DNA of 64,000 nucleotides from Sphingobacterium deserti (GTDB lineage: Bacteria; Bacteroidota; Bacteroidia; Sphingobacteriales; Sphingobacteriaceae), in contig NZ_JJMU01000008.1 of NCBI RefSeq assembly GCF_000757725.1, positions 1 through 64,000 of the forward strand. Direction: 5' to 3'. The first letter of the stretch is position 1. Every line of letters starts with the position of its first letter. A program made the translations under genes and the position numbers. Below are positions 744 through 7,631 of the stretch, in pieces. The notes under the pieces are model-generated. The model made no database searches. It worked only from the letters and a program-made list of their open reading frames with translations, and had not been told where the DNA came from.

Positions 744-929
744 TTACTCCACTACTTCTTCTTCTACCGTACGCTCATTTTCCGATGAAACTTCGTTATC
801 AAACAAAATACGTACCGATGGCGTATACGTATCATCATGTTGACCAGATCTAGTCGCCCAAAAGAAGGCGCCTAAGAAAACTAACGCAATAAATATACTG
901 CAACCGATCAAAAAAAATATAATATTCAT
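744..929 (-). CDS. ccoS: cbb3-type cytochrome oxidase assembly protein CcoS
   Basis: A 61-residue single-pass membrane protein. Residues 1-25 form a hydrophobic helix rich in Ile, Phe and Leu, followed by a short polar, acidic tail ending in EEEVVE. This size and layout are those of CcoS, a small factor needed to insert cofactors into the cbb3 (high-affinity, micro-oxic) terminal oxidase. The sequence itself is too short for a firm call. The strongest support is position: it follows ccoI by 38 bases as the last gene of the operon. No ccoN or ccoO follows in the 740 bases to the window edge, so the oxidase structural genes are encoded elsewhere or beyond it. Confidence 0.85.
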   Translation of the reverse strand: MNIIFFLIGCSIFIALVFLGAFFWATRSGQHDDTYTPSVRILFDNEVSSENERTVEEEVVE

Positions 930-967: not shown

Positions 968-3367
968 TTACGTCAATCCATTACGCTTCGCAAACCATCG
1001 TGTCGCTAAACTTGTGAAAGAAATGATCGTCACCGTGCTGATCGGCATTAAAATAGCCGCAAACAGCGGCGACATCGTTCCTTGTACCGCAAAACTCAAA
1101 CCCACCATGTTATACGCCAATGAAATGGCAAAACTCATATGTATAACTTTTACTGCATCTTTAGCAAATGCGAAAAAGCGGGGCAATTTATCAAAGGATA
1201 CACCGTCCAAAATGGCATCACATCCCGGTGAAAAATTATTAATATCATCAGACACGGCAATACCAAGATCAGCTTTTTTTAACGCGCCCGCGTCATTCAA
1301 ACCATCGCCCAGCATACAGACTTGCAATCCTTGCTCTTGCCAATTCTCTACATAGCGTAGCTTATCTGCAGGCTGCTGATTGAATACCAGCTGCGACGAT
1401 TTTGGAAAGACAGTCCGAAGCGCATCCGCGTGTCGTTCATTATCGCCTGAGAGCAGGTGCAGCGTATAGTTGCCTTCTAAGGTACGGACAACGTTTGAAA
1501 GCCCTTCGCGCCAAGACTGTTCTATCTTAAAAAAACCACAAATCCGATCGTCTACCGCTACATAAATAGCCGTTCCTTCCACACGCTTAGATTCCGAAAC
1601 AACGAAATTAGCCGACCCTACCCTGATCACATGTCCATCGATCTCGGCACGAATTCCTTTGCCGATCTGCTCATCGAAACTTGTTAACTCCAATGGTTGA
1701 TCTTCGGACAACCACTGAACAATCTCTCGGCTGAGTGGATGACTCGAGTGACGGCAGGCGGAATAAAGCAGCTTCCTATCGAATGCGCTAAGATTACCTT
1801 CAAAAAACATTGTTGACGATTTTGGCGAGGATATGGTTCCGGTTTTATCAAATACGATGCAATCTATTGCGGCCATTTGCTCTACCGCTGCTGTATTTTT
1901 AACATACATTTTATTGCGATCGAAGATGGACAACGCCGCAGACAATGTGAAAGGCGAGCTCAATGCTAAAGCACACGGACAAGCAATAATCAATACCGCC
2001 GTAAATGCGCCCCATGCCCGCGATGGATCGCCACCAATCAACCAAACCGTCGCCGCTAAGAAGGCTACCAGCACCAACCCAATCGTGAAATACTTACTTA
2101 TAAAGCCGATAAAAGTATCAAATTTCTTTTCATAATGCTTAAAGCTTTCGTTATTCCAGAGCTTCGTCAAGTAACTTTGTGATACGGCTTTGACAACTTC
2201 TAATTCAATGGCCTCCCCTGTCTGGCGGCCTCCGGCATACACGATCTCGCCCAAGGATTTCGGAATGACTTTCGATTCGCCAGTTACAAAACTAAAATCC
2301 ACCGCCGCGCGCCCCTGCAACAGGATAGCATCAGCTGGAATAATCTCATTGTTTCGTACGCGGATCCGATCCCCGACCTGCAGATTGGCCAGCTGTACCG
2401 GACGGTCCATCTGCTCACCCACCACAGTTACAGCAACAGGAAAGTATGAACGGTAGTCGCGTTCAAAAGAGATATGGTGATAGGTACGCTGTTGCACCCA
2501 CTTCCCAATAAGAATGAAGAACACCAGACTACACAAGGTATCCGCAAAACCCGGCCCCGTTTTACTCAGCACTTCCACTGCTGTGCGTAAAAAAATAACA
2601 AATATCCCTAAAGCCAAGGGGACATCCAGGTTAAGCTGTCGCTGCCGGATACTTTGCCAAGCCGAACGAAAATAATCGGAAGCGCTGTAGAGCAGCGTAG
2701 GTATAGCAAATCCCAAATTCATGTAACCAAAGACGTTGGCATAATTTTTCTCAAAGGCATCCATTCCGAAATATTCCGGAAAGCTCAACATCATGGAGTT
2801 TCCAAAGCAAAAGCCTGCAACGGCTATCTTGGCCAGTAGCTGGTTGTTATTTACGCTTTTCCCCTGTTTGACGACATCTTGCAGCGTGATCTTCGGTTGG
2901 TAGCCAATTTGGGTCAACAGTCCCACCAAACCGCGTAAGGACAAGTTATCCGATGTAAAGGTTATGCTGGCTTGCTTCTTCATAAAATCAACTTGAGAAG
3001 CTAAGACGGCTGCGTTTAGTTTGTAAAGATGCTCCAGTAGCCAAATACAAGAGCTGCAATGAATTGCCGGAATGTACAGGGTAATAATCGTCCGATCCTC
3101 ATCTTGATAATCTACCAGTTTCCGCACAATATCTGCCTCATCCAAATACGACAGATCCCGTTGCGGATCTTTTTGCGATTTGCCGGGATGACTATTGTAG
3201 CGGTAGTAGCTGTGCATATCGCTAGCTGTGAGCACTTGATAGACAGTTTGGCAGCCCAAGCAACAGAAAAGATACTCATCCACCTGATAGGAAGTTGCCT
3301 CTATTCCGATAGCATCGCCACAATGGTAGCATGCTGATTTGTTTTCCACAAGTTTATACGTTGCCAT
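968..3367 (-). CDS. ccoI: Copper-exporting P1B-type ATPase CcoI (FixI) for cbb3 oxidase maturation
   Basis: Membrane cation pump that delivers copper for assembly of cbb3 oxidase. In order: an N-terminal cysteine region (CYHCGD and FCCLGC) of the type found in FixI/CcoI, a heavy-metal-associated domain with CSSC, membrane helices, and the CPC metal site (ACPCALALSS). The phosphorylation site is DKTGT and the hinge motif is GDGLND. About 799 residues, normal for the family. I prefer the ATG at 3367, preceded by AGGA and AGGG, over a GTG at 3394 that would add nine residues. It lies between hemN and ccoS in a four-gene operon. The CcoI subfamily, rather than a general CopA exporter, is inferred from the N-terminal cysteines and from ccoS next door. 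Confidence 0.93.
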   Translation of the reverse strand: MATYKLVENKSACYHCGDAIGIEATSYQVDEYLFCCLGCQTVYQVLTASDMHSYYRYNSHPGKSQKDPQRDLSYLDEADIVRKLVDYQDEDRTIITLYIPAIHCSSCIWLLEHLYKLNAAVLASQVDFMKKQASITFTSDNLSLRGLVGLLTQIGYQPKITLQDVVKQGKSVNNNQLLAKIAVAGFCFGNSMMLSFPEYFGMDAFEKNYANVFGYMNLGFAIPTLLYSASDYFRSAWQSIRQRQLNLDVPLALGIFVIFLRTAVEVLSKTGPGFADTLCSLVFFILIGKWVQQRTYHHISFERDYRSYFPVAVTVVGEQMDRPVQLANLQVGDRIRVRNNEIIPADAILLQGRAAVDFSFVTGESKVIPKSLGEIVYAGGRQTGEAIELEVVKAVSQSYLTKLWNNESFKHYEKKFDTFIGFISKYFTIGLVLVAFLAATVWLIGGDPSRAWGAFTAVLIIACPCALALSSPFTLSAALSIFDRNKMYVKNTAAVEQMAAIDCIVFDKTGTISSPKSSTMFFEGNLSAFDRKLLYSACRHSSHPLSREIVQWLSEDQPLELTSFDEQIGKGIRAEIDGHVIRVGSANFVVSESKRVEGTAIYVAVDDRICGFFKIEQSWREGLSNVVRTLEGNYTLHLLSGDNERHADALRTVFPKSSQLVFNQQPADKLRYVENWQEQGLQVCMLGDGLNDAGALKKADLGIAVSDDINNFSPGCDAILDGVSFDKLPRFFAFAKDAVKVIHMSFAISLAYNMVGLSFAVQGTMSPLFAAILMPISTVTIISFTSLATRWFAKRNGLT

Positions 3368-3403
3368 CCCTATGATTCCTGTACTATTCTTCACGTGATT
3401 CTA

Positions 3404-4762
3404 TTATATTGCCTGACTGAAGATCTTTTCTTCATTTTGCGCGCGTTGAAGCCGTTGATCAAAGGCCATACAAATATTTCTTAAGAAAGATTTGCCTAAA
3501 GTTGTTGCGCGCACCGAAGCCCCTGTAATATCAAGCAATCCATCTTCTGCTAATGCTTGTAAACGTGAGAGGATAATGTCAGACAATTCGCTATCCGCCG
3601 TTAGCTCAACAGATGAACGGCACATCATGTCCAATATATACTGCCGAATACGGCAATCCTCCTGATTCAAAAGATGTCCTTTGAAAATTGGTAGCTGCCC
3701 CTCGTCCAACAATCGATAGTACTCCTCTACGGTCTTCACATTTTGGGCGAAACTATTCCAGGCGTCGCTGATAGACGATACGCCGATCCCAAGAAGCAGC
3801 GGTGTGTAGCGGTCGGCATAGCCCATAAAATTCCGGTGTAAGCGTCCGGCAGCTGCTGCCCTGAACAATTCATCTGTTGCTTGCGCAAAATGATCCATTC
3901 CCACGTCACGATAACCCGCTTGTTCGATCATCGCCTTTCCAAGTTCGTATAGTGCTAACTTATCCTGGCCCACAGGTAGGTCGAATTCCGTAAATCGACG
4001 TTGCCCCGGTTTTAACCACGGGACATGCGCATAGCTATAAAAGGAAATGCGATCTGGTTTAAGTTCCAGCGATTGCTGGATAGTATGTTGTATTTTTGCT
4101 TTGGTTTGGCGCGGCAATCCATAAATCAGGTCGAAGTTGATCGAACTATAGCCAATTTTCCGGGCCACGTTGACGACAGCCTCTACATCTTGTATTGTTT
4201 GGTGCCTGTTGATGACATATTGCACTTCCGGATCGAAATCCTGTATCCCCAAGCTTAACCGCGTAAAGCCAAGATCATATAAGGTCTGGAGATGTTCGTT
4301 TGATGTATTCGCCGGATGTGCTTCAAAAGAAAACACAGCGTCTTCGGTGCTACAGGTGCCATCCAACAAACCCGAAACCAATAACTTTAGATGATCTGCT
4401 TGAAAAAAGGTAGGCGTTCCTCCGCCAAAGTGCATTTCAGTGATTCGAATATCTTGCCCCAATATTTCTTTATACATTTTCCATTCTTTCAGTAAATGGG
4501 CGATGTAGGGCAGCTCTACCGAATGGTTTTTCGTAATTCGCGTATTACAACCACAATAAGTGCAGAGGCTTTCGCAAAATGGCAGATGCACATATAGACT
4601 AATTCCTGTATGCTTCGAACTATCATAGGTCGCTTTCAAACGATCTACCCAAGCCTCGGTCCGGAAATTATCCTGATCCCAAAATGGGACAGTAGGATAG
4701 CTGGTGTAGCGCGGAGCCGCTACATTATATTTTTCGGTTAGACTAACCGGTATATTTCTCAT
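3404..4762 (-). CDS. hemN: Oxygen-independent coproporphyrinogen III oxidase HemN
   Basis: Radical-SAM enzyme that converts coproporphyrinogen III to protoporphyrinogen IX in haem synthesis without oxygen. The cluster motif CESLCTYCGC (residues 63-72) supplies the three Cys ligands (63, 67, 70) plus the extra Cys72 characteristic of HemN. It is followed by the SAM-binding glycine motif HFGGGTPTFF. At 452 residues it is full length, with the C-terminal HemN domain present. Its start overlaps the end of the upstream LDH-like gene by 20 bases, so the two are translationally coupled. Placement with cbb3 assembly genes fits low-oxygen haem supply. Confidence 0.96.
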   Translation of the reverse strand: MRNIPVSLTEKYNVAAPRYTSYPTVPFWDQDNFRTEAWVDRLKATYDSSKHTGISLYVHLPFCESLCTYCGCNTRITKNHSVELPYIAHLLKEWKMYKEILGQDIRITEMHFGGGTPTFFQADHLKLLVSGLLDGTCSTEDAVFSFEAHPANTSNEHLQTLYDLGFTRLSLGIQDFDPEVQYVINRHQTIQDVEAVVNVARKIGYSSINFDLIYGLPRQTKAKIQHTIQQSLELKPDRISFYSYAHVPWLKPGQRRFTEFDLPVGQDKLALYELGKAMIEQAGYRDVGMDHFAQATDELFRAAAAGRLHRNFMGYADRYTPLLLGIGVSSISDAWNSFAQNVKTVEEYYRLLDEGQLPIFKGHLLNQEDCRIRQYILDMMCRSSVELTADSELSDIILSRLQALAEDGLLDITGASVRATTLGKSFLRNICMAFDQRLQRAQNEEKIFSQAI

Positions 4763-5189
4763 TACCTTCGGTATTTAGGGGTGTAACCTTACAATCTTTC
4801 ACGCAGCAACAAGCCGTGCCTACGCATCGGCCACTATCCCATAAATTGAGGTTCCGAATTGTTTGTTCGGCAACGCCTTTCGGTGTCCGATCAGCATAAG
4901 GGGTATTTGCCACTTGTATATTTAAGTCTGCCGCGCGATACAGATCGATATGGTCGGTAGTTAATGAACGGGTGACAATTTTTTGAATGCCTGCAGCCTT
5001 TAATTGCTCTAGGATATCTGCGCTTAACGTATCGTCATGAGACACAATAACCACCTCTTTTCCAGATGCGTAGTGCAAAGTATTACCATTGAGGGGATTG
5101 GAAATCAATGTCAAATCATGAACTTTCCCATTGGCAAGTGCAAGCAGCTCTTTCTCAAAATCTTTTATATTATAAGCGACAGCTTTCAT
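4743..5189 (-). CDS. Truncated D-lactate-dehydrogenase-like protein with C-terminal Cys cluster
   Basis: 148 residues. Positions about 42-117 resemble the N-terminal catalytic subdomain of D-2-hydroxyacid dehydrogenases (VVIVSHDDTLSADIL, then GIQKIVTRS, then DLNIQVANTPYA). The protein stops before the Rossmann NAD domain, and the catalytic Arg/Glu/His region is absent, so it should not be a dehydrogenase. The C-terminal tail instead holds five cysteines (C122, C127-129, C133) in CVGTACCCVKDC, suggestive of metal, Fe-S or thiol chemistry. It is the first gene of the hemN-ccoI-ccoS operon and overlaps hemN by 20 bases. The function is unknown. A role in sensing or supplying metal or redox equivalents for cbb3/haem maturation is inference only. 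Confidence 0.8.
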   Translation of the reverse strand: MKAVAYNIKDFEKELLALANGKVHDLTLISNPLNGNTLHYASGKEVVIVSHDDTLSADILEQLKAAGIQKIVTRSLTTDHIDLYRAADLNIQVANTPYADRTPKGVAEQTIRNLNLWDSGRCVGTACCCVKDCKVTPLNTEGNEKYTG

Positions 5190-5214
5190 GAGGTTCTTCT
5201 GTAAATTGTATGTA

Positions 5215-5243
5215 CAAAATTACCACAGGCCGGAGTAGGCCTG
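5215..5243 (-). promoter_or_regulatory. Promoter of the hemN-ccoI-ccoS operon with overlapping dyad
   Basis: On the minus strand, TAATTTTG (5215-5222) is an exact -7 element 25 bases upstream of the ATG at 5189. Directly upstream lies a perfect inverted repeat CAGGCC-N6-GGCCTG (5226-5243). Six-base arms with a six-base gap match the geometry of CRP-type operators, though the sequence is not the classical TGTGA or FNR TTGAT box. No -33 TTG is present at the usual distance, as at some activator-dependent promoters. Binding by the neighbouring REC-CRP protein is inference. Confidence 0.5.
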
Positions 5244-5282
5244 CATGTGTTGCATCAAGAAAGAAAATGATACTGGTCACAC

Positions 5283-5331
5283 AAAAAAACGGCCCTTCGG
5301 AATAAATATTCCTTAAGACCGCAACGGGCTA
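5283..5331 (-). terminator. Terminator after the REC-CRP regulator gene
   Basis: Read on the minus strand, a hairpin centred on GGAATATTTATTCC, extended by imperfect pairing between flanking GGTC and GGCC segments, ends in seven T. It separates the regulator operon from the hemN operon promoter. Confidence 0.7.
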
Positions 5332-5374
5332 TTTTATCTATTTTGAAAAACCGTCAGGGATATAGCCGCTGGAA

Positions 5375-6433
5375 TTAAAATTTTACGCGCTTCAACTTAG
5401 CGATAGAAAAGACGCGAATCGCGTTCCCCTCTTTCGTTATCAGACGTTCGTCTTTGAAATCGGCTAGCATACGACTGATCGTCTCATTGGCAGTTCCAGC
5501 TAGCGCAGCCAGATCATCACGCGAGATACGGATGAGCACTTCGTCTTCGCTGTTAGCGGATTTGGTCTTTTCAGCCACATTAACGAGCGCATTTGCTACA
5601 CGTTTACGCACTGTATCGTAGGCGAAGCCCAACATTTGTTCTTCTTTCTCCCGGATATTGCCCGATAGCAATTTGATAAATTTGCTAGCAATCGAAGGTT
5701 TGTTGTATAGCAACTCGAAAAAGCGTTCCCTAGGAATAAGCGCAATTTCCGAATCTTCCAAAGTGGAGGCATTGTCGCTATATTTTTCGTTGAGCAATAC
5801 CGTTTCATACCCGAAAAATGTGTCGGGGATATGAATGTCTGTGGAAAGCTCTCTTCCATCTTGATAAAAAAGAAAACTTCGCACCTTTCCTTTCAACAGA
5901 TAGTAAACAAATACAGGAGAATCGCCAGCTTCATAGATAGACTGCTTTTTTTTGAAAACTTTCACTCGAGCATCCTTCACTAGATCCCGCAATAAATAGT
6001 TTTGTTCATCGTCACTCAGATGAAGGTGAGCTTTTTGTGCAGCATTACCGGTCAATTTCTCCCTCTTCTTCAATCTGCTCTCAATGGCATTCAGCAGCTC
6101 AATATCATCAAACGGCTTTGTGAGGTAGTCATCTGCACCCATTTCCATTGCTTTGCGCAAATCAGCACGTTCAGATTTGGCGGTCATAAAGATAAAGGGG
6201 ATGCCAGCCGTCACTTCGTTTTTGCTCAGCATGTATAGCACGCCATAGCCATCTAACTCGGGCATCATAATATCACAAAGGATAAGATCGGGCTTGTTCT
6301 TTATGGCCAGATCAACACCTACTTTTCCATCTGCTGCAGTTAATATTTCGTAATCGCCCGTCAGGGAAAGTACTTCCGCTGTCCCCTCTCGGATTTCGAA
6401 ATTATCTTCAATGATCAGTATTTTTTTTGCCAT
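5375..6433 (-). CDS. Response regulator fused to a CRP/FNR-type DNA-binding module
   Basis: 352 residues in two parts. Residues 1-120 are a receiver domain with phospho-acceptor D54 (CDIMMPELDG), T84 (MTAK) and K106 (TKPF). Residues about 150-345 are a CRP/FNR unit: a cyclic-nucleotide-binding-like beta barrel, a dimer helix, and a winged helix-turn-helix (SRDDLAALAGTANETISRML, about 304-323). The receiver replaces the usual input, so phosphorylation probably controls a CRP-style activator. No FNR Fe-S cysteines are seen. The gene begins 10 bases after the FixL-like kinase, and a terminator follows. Likely targets include the adjacent hemN-cco operon (inference). The fusion is known from Bacteroidota annotations but the output is little studied. 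Confidence 0.93.
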   Translation of the reverse strand: MAKKILIIEDNFEIREGTAEVLSLTGDYEILTAADGKVGVDLAIKNKPDLILCDIMMPELDGYGVLYMLSKNEVTAGIPFIFMTAKSERADLRKAMEMGADDYLTKPFDDIELLNAIESRLKKREKLTGNAAQKAHLHLSDDEQNYLLRDLVKDARVKVFKKKQSIYEAGDSPVFVYYLLKGKVRSFLFYQDGRELSTDIHIPDTFFGYETVLLNEKYSDNASTLEDSEIALIPRERFFELLYNKPSIASKFIKLLSGNIREKEEQMLGFAYDTVRKRVANALVNVAEKTKSANSEDEVLIRISRDDLAALAGTANETISRMLADFKDERLITKEGNAIRVFSIAKLKRVKF

Positions 6434-6443
6434 TATTCTCTTA

Positions 6444-7631
6444 CTATTGCTGGAAAGTCATTTTAAATGTAGCGCCTTCGTTCACTGCAGAGCTGTACTC
6501 CATGATACCGTCCATGAGTTCTACATAGCGCTTTACAATATTAAGCCCCAGGCCAGTCCCTGGAATGTTTCCGATATTCTGTGCGCGAAAAAAAGGTTCA
6601 AATAGGCTTTTTTGATCTTCAATAGGAATACCAATGCCGTTATCACGAATACACATTACGCAGATGTCATCTTTGATTTCTGTAGAAAACTCGATAAATG
6701 TATCCTCTCCCGAATATTTTATTGCGTTGGAAATCAAATTTATGATGCTACTTTTCACCAAATGGCTATCCAGGTAAAAGACACCTACATCACCGGTATG
6801 TTGATATACAATGTGTTGATTTTTCTTGCAAATCATCTGCATTTCTTCCGTAATCTCTTCAGCCAATTGCACCAAATTTATATCGGATTTGTTGGCAACA
6901 ACTTTGCCAGCCTCCAATTTCTCTAAGGAAAGAAAATCATTTAGAATATTGTTTAATAGCTGAACCGCACCGCGAATCCGGTGTGTATGCTTAATGACAT
7001 TTTGATAATCTGGCCGTTCCACATATTTTTCGATCAACGAAGCGGATAATTGCACCGAGCTTAATGGTGTACGAAACTCGTGCGACGCCATCGAAACAAA
7101 TCGTGATTTCATTTGGTTGAGTTCCTTTTCCTTTTCCAAAGACAGGCTCACGTCTGATTTCGCTTTTTCGAGTTCAGAGACCAACTTTATCAAATCTTTC
7201 GTACGCTCGCTTACCGTCGCCTCGAGCTTGATAGCGTGCTCTCGGAGTTCATCCTCTGCTGCACGCTCTTTGGTAAGATCATGGATAAAGCCCGTGAAGA
7301 TATTCTTATTTTGATAATAGACTTCGCTCACGGCCAATCGAAATGGGAAGGTCACTCCATTCTTCTTTCGACCTAGTACTTCCCGACCGATACCAATAAT
7401 CTTCTTGACCCCGGTATGCTGATAACTGGAAATGTAGTCATCATGCTTGCTTCGGTCGGGTTCAGGCATAAGCATAGCAATATTATTACCAATCACCTCT
7501 TCGGGCTCATACCCGAAGAGCGCAGAAGCTGCCGGATTAATAGACTCCACTATGCCCCGACTATCGATGGTGATAATCCCATCGATCGCATTATCAATAA
7601 TAGCGGCTAAAAGCTTTGCGGAGTCAACCAT
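6444..7631 (-). CDS. FixL-like PAS sensor histidine kinase (candidate haem/O2 sensor)
   Basis: Soluble 395-residue kinase. The PAS domain (about 8-121) matches FixL closely: MLMPEPDRSKHDDYISSY, then IIGIGREV, then FTGFIHDLT. It keeps His63, aligning with the FixL proximal haem ligand in RSRHD, and Arg83, aligning with the distal Arg of IGIGR. A coiled coil (about 121-175) leads to HisKA with H184 (SHEFRTPL) and an ATPase domain with N302, DNGIG (330-334) and GTGLGL (358-363). There is no membrane segment. It follows ettA by 2 bases and precedes the REC-CRP regulator, its obvious partner. Haem binding is not proven: close PAS homologues with the same motif exist that have not been shown to bind haem. 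Confidence 0.93.
   Translation of the reverse strand: MVDSAKLLAAIIDNAIDGIITIDSRGIVESINPAASALFGYEPEEVIGNNIAMLMPEPDRSKHDDYISSYQHTGVKKIIGIGREVLGRKKNGVTFPFRLAVSEVYYQNKNIFTGFIHDLTKERAAEDELREHAIKLEATVSERTKDLIKLVSELEKAKSDVSLSLEKEKELNQMKSRFVSMASHEFRTPLSSVQLSASLIEKYVERPDYQNVIKHTHRIRGAVQLLNNILNDFLSLEKLEAGKVVANKSDINLVQLAEEITEEMQMICKKNQHIVYQHTGDVGVFYLDSHLVKSSIINLISNAIKYSGEDTFIEFSTEIKDDICVMCIRDNGIGIPIEDQKSLFEPFFRAQNIGNIPGTGLGLNIVKRYVELMDGIMEYSSAVNEGATFKMTFQQ

Follow-up and report, generated by a model that had tools for sequence, protein, structure and literature searches.

Why should a piece of a D-lactate dehydrogenase (D-LDH), ending in a cluster of cysteines, head a group of genes for haem synthesis and cbb3 oxidase assembly? 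The question is raised by a gene in the window, as we call the whole stretch of 64,000 nucleotides from Sphingobacterium deserti that was analysed here. A first-pass annotation had read its product as the N-terminal subdomain of a dehydrogenase with no Rossmann domain, and had proposed that it is a repurposed fold handling metal, Fe-S or redox in the insertion of haem or copper. The features discussed below are collected in Table 1.

Table 1. Coordinates of the cysteine-tailed gene, its parts and its neighbours in the window
Feature	Position	Strand	Basis
ccoS	744..929	-	TIGR00847, 51.6 bits, cut-off 28.35
P-type ATPase, ccoI by neighbours	968..3394	-	Best with heavy-metal P-type ATPase models, under their cut-offs; above the TIGR01494 cut-off
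hemN	3404..4762	-	TIGR00538, 433.6 bits, cut-off 324.95
Cysteine-tailed, Rossmann-less D-LDH substrate-domain protein, 148 aa	4743..5189	-	ORF and translation; Pfam 2-Hacid_dh alone; purifying selection in relatives
Cysteine tail C122-C133, motif CX4CXCX3C	4791..4826	-	Translation; motif comparison in the family
Complete (beta-alpha)5 substrate domain, residues 1-118 (N-terminal part plus C-terminal helix), predicted	4836..5189	-	AlphaFold2, VIA-align
C-terminal helix, residues 103-118, predicted	4836-4883	-	AlphaFold2 model, within the substrate domain
Approximate junction, residues 98-102; site of the inserted Rossmann domain in relatives	4884..4898	-	Family alignment
Promoter element TAATTTTG	5215..5222	-	TAnnTTTG conserved in members
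Second, imperfect operator box	5246..5257	-	Part of the tandem pattern
FNR/FixK-like operator TGACCAGTATCA	5268..5279	-	TGAY-N4-RTCA conserved upstream in members
REC-CRP response regulator (REC, cNMP-binding and HTH_Crp)	5375..6433	-	Pfam
Histidine kinase with FixL-type haem-PAS domain	6444..7631	-	phmmer to PDB 2cmn FixL, E 2.9e-30; HisKA and HATPase_c (Pfam)

Domain content and setting of the gene

The gene is a single frame with an ATG start and zero internal stops in the ORF list and translation, and the ORF coordinates confirm the 20-base overlap with hemN that had been reported. Pfam finds 2-Hacid_dh (PF00389) at residues 19-109 (E 3.9e-10, 40 bits, cut-off 24.6). PF02826 (2-Hacid_dh_C, the NAD-binding Rossmann domain) was unmatched in the window protein and in two further tail-bearing copies of the same short form that were scanned; the same scan matched it in L199 and in the full-length copy L191. 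The Rossmann stretch is absent from the window protein in the family alignment too, and all three positions of the Arg/Glu/His triad fall in the missing stretch. Arg, Glu and His make up the catalytic triad of D-LDH. As both the NAD site and the triad are gone, the window protein cannot be a dehydrogenase.

An alignment, A1, was made of 62 of the 97 short copies described below, picked for diversity, and the window protein was modelled by AlphaFold2 with 62 family sequences. The mean pLDDT of the model is 92.2, with the blocks of the first 120 residues at 96-98, block 121-130 at 91 and block 131-140 at 60, and the model has five alternating strand-helix units, the last helix being the C-terminal one of Table 1. 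VIA-align placed model residues 1-129 on residues 1-329 of E. coli LdhA (5z1z_C), with 128 residues aligned at an rmsd of 1.6 and a Z of 23.0. The predicted substrate domain is therefore complete, and the protein lacks the Rossmann domain, which in ordinary D-LDH is inserted before the last helix. Thus the first-pass annotation was right about the Rossmann domain, which neither Pfam nor the alignment finds, but the remaining part is not N-terminal only, since residues 103-118 correspond to the C-terminal helix of the dehydrogenase. We are close to certain that the gene encodes a tail-bearing D-LDH substrate domain whose Rossmann insert has been lost. The nearest named relative found was from Sphingobacterium paludis, at 86% identity.

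Downstream, where a hemN-ccoI-ccoS operon had been proposed, HemN and CcoS score above their NCBIfam cut-offs, whereas the frame between them passes only the general P-type cut-off of TIGR01494; because the heavy-metal models stay below cut-off, the label ccoI rests on this general match and on the neighbours. Upstream, the kinase with the FixL-type haem-PAS domain adjoins the fused REC-CRP regulator. No RNA element was matched up to E 1 in an Rfam scan of positions 3200-6500.

The locus in other Sphingobacteriaceae

When 201 genomes of Sphingobacteriaceae were searched with the window protein, 149 were matched at E 1e-8. The set analysed comprises 150 members out of 146 matching genomes, 97 of them short and 53 full-length; the matching genomes G408, G419 and G426, and unlisted second matches, lie outside it. 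In related genera the order is FixL-type kinase, REC-CRP regulator, gene and hemN, the gene there being a full-length D-LDH that is mostly tailed. REC-CRP and hemN both adjoin at least 75/97 short and 39/53 full-length copies; at some loci the flank is only 1.5 kb long, so that neighbours, and ccoI in particular, may be undercounted here and below. Full-length homologues without a tail had been expected if the window gene were a local truncation, and the outcome was mixed: full-length homologues do occupy the same locus, yet 39/53 are tailed. The window gene is therefore neither a local truncation nor the sole tail-bearing copy.

That the intact frame is no obvious pseudogene had also been claimed, and this is borne out by the median dN/dS of 0.077 in relatives over 37 same-genus pairs (similar sequences, dS 0.03-1.5 only), the value for hemN being 0.060 over the 29 of these pairs for which it was computable. 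Conservation in relatives together with this low dN/dS rules out a local truncation or pseudogene.

In five close pairs (G511-G562, G501-G536, G449-G467, G534-G557 and G447-G551) the synonymous divergence of the short gene is smaller than that of every measured flanking gene, and at nonsynonymous sites it lies below hemN; in the pairs G261-G490, G411-G441 and G472-G566 the low divergence is not clear-cut. High expression was rejected as the source of low dS, codon adaptation (0.44-0.50 in five short copies) being similar to that of neighbouring genes and not raised. Exchange of the short gene between species is a possible explanation.

All five clustered cysteines of the first-pass annotation, C122, C127, C128, C129 and C133, are present in the translation, and C122, C127, C129 and C133 are conserved, C128 being under the 80% level used for listing conservation. 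The motif CX4CXCX2-3C occurs in 83/97 short members. It also occurs in 39/53 full-length members, and the tail is thus probably older than the loss of the Rossmann domain. In some lineages the cysteines are dispensable, since the full motif is missing from 14/97 short copies and six of the 97 have zero tail cysteines. No such cluster was found in 20 listed C-terminal ends of LDHs from other families.

The tail is accompanied by a set of residues in the domain itself. K22, T27, I29, N31 and K44 occur in 98-100% of short copies, 100% of full-length locus copies and 0-10% of 20 ordinary LDHs, and the four tail cysteines in 90-96%, 88-91% and 0% (n = 20), respectively; K22, T27, N31, K44 and the four cysteines taken together stand at 0-5% in the ordinary enzymes. 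These percentages refer to rows with a residue in the column concerned, the five off-locus full-length rows being excluded and the off-locus short copy L099 kept. It can be seen that K22, T27, N31, K44 and the four cysteines are kept whether the enzyme part is present or absent. The (beta-alpha)5 topology leads us to infer that the tail, like the points where strands 2 and 3 begin, would be on the side of the domain that faces away from the catalytic cleft.

The triad is altered in six full-length locus copies that keep both the four-cysteine tail and their place. All three residues differ in L191 (G475), Arg is replaced by Ser in L161 (G470), L180 (G476), L167 (G488) and L175 (the locus copy of G520), and His by Arg in L187 (G492). 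Judged by their residues, these copies are perhaps dead dehydrogenases ahead of domain loss.

Genome G520 holds, besides its full-length locus copy with the Arg-to-Ser change, a tail-less LDH with an intact triad and the short tailed copy L099, which is not next to hemN or REC-CRP. Tail-less short relatives directly after REC-CRP were seen in G408 (121 aa, L240:1361-1726) and, in another bacterial family, in G210 (123 aa, L237:7351-7722). Outside the Sphingobacteriaceae, no short cysteine-tailed form was found among the matches listed for 395 genomes of the class (E 1e-6; besides a 57-aa fragment in G707) or among those listed for 395 genomes of the phylum (E 1e-8).

The full/short state of the gene has changed many times. 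On a HemN tree (FastTree, 135/150 members) 12 changes are needed, 8 of them forced by starred branches, and within genera g3 and g185 (41 rows) 8 changes are needed, 6 of them forced, with a bootstrap range of 7-9; since HemN may have followed a history that is not that of the genomes around it, these numbers are not exact. For 11/11 short g3 copies the nearest substrate-domain relatives are full-length g3 copies, one pair of short sisters excepted, and the junctions differ between short copies, with an APHQ remnant in G500 and a different one in G543 in the alignment. The substrate-domain tree needs 10 changes and forces just 1, and because it is poorly resolved, it is the HemN trees and the differing junctions that carry the argument for repeated loss. 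Counts of changes alone cannot tell loss from gain, and the direction is taken to be loss because full-length forms are the rule elsewhere. The repeated loss of the whole NAD-binding domain, with core and tail kept, suggests that the core has a second job: the ancestral enzyme would have had a non-catalytic role, perhaps in oxygen or metal signalling, that the short forms retain.

Promoter and partners of the gene

A promoter of its own had been ascribed to the gene, and comparison with relatives backs this. A TGAY-N4-RTCA box lies within 150 bp upstream of 129/150 members (80/97 short and 49/53 full-length; shuffles mean 1.44, largest 4), and TAnnTTTG, which we take to be the Bacteroidota minus-7 element, within the last 70 bp of 141/150 (mononucleotide shuffles mean 6.24, largest 13). 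The distance from the box to the first following TAnnTTTG is 45 bp in 113/125 copies having both. In the window alone a single box is within chance (1 found, 0.26 expected); for the tandem operator, the window site is the sole match without mismatch in its own genome, one other site (C8:103088-103121) having one mismatch. A sigma-70 promoter scan of 4700-5450 found none. Terminator-like hits in the same interval number 4, with 0.8 expected, and one of them, at 5224-5245 (-), occupies the stretch that separates the second box from the TAATTTTG element, for which it is a competing reading.

To which of its neighbours is the gene tied? Across the 201 genomes, the gene and HemN are both present in 141, the gene alone in 8, HemN alone in 6 and neither in 46 (Fisher 2.6e-30, kinship ignored). 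The corresponding numbers for the gene and REC-CRP are 148, 1, 6 and 46. A genome is counted here as lacking the gene when the window protein has no match in it at E 1e-8, and five of the six genomes with REC-CRP alone have weaker profile matches; in the no-match loci of G398, G413, G425 and G433, the four read, no gene copy was seen beside hemN. The gene is present in 7/12 genomes with REC-CRP and without a HemN match, and in 0/5 with HemN and without REC-CRP (Fisher 0.044, kinship ignored), small groups in which some genomes are incomplete (G403 at 71%, G402 and G430 at 76%). In the seven genomes without HemN the gene is still placed after the kinase and REC-CRP. The tie to REC-CRP could be explained by co-regulation alone.

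Adjacency gives hemN the closer place among short copies, 94/97 of which lie directly before it compared with 77/97 next to REC-CRP; among full-length copies, 43/53 lie directly before hemN. Conservation of tail and hemN linkage in homologues is thus supported. As to the wider linkage to cco genes, which the first-pass annotation had wished to see compared in homologues, ccoI directly follows hemN in at least 59/97 short loci and in 0/53 full-length loci, three of which (G400, G406 and G461) have ccoI further downstream. Six short copies without any tail cysteine still sit before hemN. In G568 the hemN matches are split over two separate frames (C1:7991-9332).

These counts bear on the main rival to the reading we favour below, namely that the protein is a metal, Fe-S or redox accessory, either for HemN (cluster or electron handling) or for CcoI (copper hand-over). 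Its place before hemN, its co-occurrence with HemN (discordant in 8 + 6 genomes) and the pLDDT of 91 predicted for block 121-130 are in keeping with such a role. We nevertheless judge it rather unlikely, given the seven genomes that have the gene and REC-CRP with no HemN match (one of them just 71% complete), the six copies that keep the place without the cysteines, and the restriction of an immediately following ccoI to the short forms. Of the original proposal there remains an intact, selected, enzyme-less fold with conserved tail and hemN linkage, whereas the idea that the protein itself takes part in inserting haem or copper is weakened.

Possible roles of the short protein

The mechanism that we place first, tentatively, is a feedback role in the FixL-type circuit, in which the protein would respond to oxygen or metal and would be a convergent counterpart of FixT of Caulobacter. 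At low oxygen the gene would be transcribed from an FNR/FixK-type promoter of its own, presumably under the control of REC-CRP; an oxygen-labile Fe-S cluster or a metal would bind to the tail cysteines; and the domain would then feed back on the FixL-type kinase or on REC-CRP, which would keep hemN and the cbb3-assembly genes from over-induction.

Receiver domains share the (beta-alpha)5 topology. In the available portions of PMC7078487, Caulobacter FixT is described as a small protein with a receiver domain, under induction by FixLJ, which carries an Fe-S cluster on four cysteines (C53, C56, C59 and C64), inhibits FixL and restrains haem synthesis; those portions also state that FixT proteins from bacteria other than Caulobacter do not have the four-cysteine motif, and that inhibition of FixL in vitro does not require the cluster, which is tied to protein stability. 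Like FixT, the window protein is small, is predicted to be a (beta-alpha)5 protein, has four conserved cysteines and is found alongside a FixL-type kinase circuit and hemN: a REC-CRP match is present in 148/149 gene-bearing genomes, and the FixL-type haem-PAS kinase lies upstream in the window. The cysteine motif is lineage-specific in both (for FixT, as far as the same portions of PMC7078487 go). Unlike FixT, the window protein has no receiver domain, Pfam giving 2-Hacid_dh only, and its cysteines are spaced CX4CXCX3C; the Fe-S cluster and the inhibition described for FixT are putative for the window protein. With LdhA-type D-LDH the window protein shares the substrate domain and C-terminal helix, and full-length tailed copies stand at the same locus, but it is without the Rossmann domain, NAD motif and Arg/Glu/His triad and adds the CX4CXCX3C tail.

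How such a feedback part could have arisen is a more doubtful matter. A possible history is that a fermentative D-LDH also served to regulate the FixL-type circuit to which it belongs, responding to redox state or oxygen by means of its cysteine tail and the rear face of the substrate domain, and that the enzyme part was later excised independently in many Sphingobacteriaceae lineages, leaving a convergent FixT-like regulator.

Two other roles seem to us improbable, and about equally so. The first is a soluble, metallothionein-like metal buffer, in which low oxygen would induce the protein, Cu(I) or Zn would be bound and the substrate domain would serve as carrier. The tail does have a CXC core and a P-type ATPase is nearby in many genomes, but the conserved cysteines number four only, the domain has a near-invariant signature and outlasts the tail in some lineages, and the codon adaptation given above is unlike that of a highly made protein. 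The second is a non-catalytic partner, or metabolite sensor, for an ordinary D-LDH encoded elsewhere, with the cysteines having no role. At another place in its genome (C43), S. deserti does keep a D-LDH-like enzyme that has the Arg, Glu and His motifs and no tail, and a 2-oxoacid is a candidate ligand that the substrate domain might still accept; however, among the variants listed most short forms have another residue in place of the substrate-loop glycine (TRSxGTDHID), and the cysteines are conserved in most copies. That the gene is a functionless, decaying remnant is hardly credible even though the catalytic part is gone and the tail too is lost in some copies, for locus, promoter geometry and signature residues are all conserved and the median dN/dS is low.

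No earlier description of a tailed, Rossmann-less D-LDH was found in the literature searched, most subscription journals being outside its reach, and the words 'truncated', 'fragment', 'lacking' and 'cysteine' are absent from the main text of PMC6303947. Atrophy of 2-Hacid_dh_C, with partial loss of a Rossmann domain, is described in the available part of PMC4432964; in that case, as far as this part goes, some of the Rossmann domain remains, whereas here the whole insert is gone and the two parts of the host domain are joined up.

The locus amounts to a natural experiment that has been run several times, in which a catalytic domain was removed from inside an enzyme while the rest, its place and its promoter were kept. 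By repeated excision a hidden second function is set apart from the enzyme, and this function can thus be tested by comparing the full-length, the apparently dead and the short forms. If the protein does act as the feedback part proposed here, then FixL-type oxygen circuits would have gained a cysteine-bearing feedback part at least two times, from unrelated folds.
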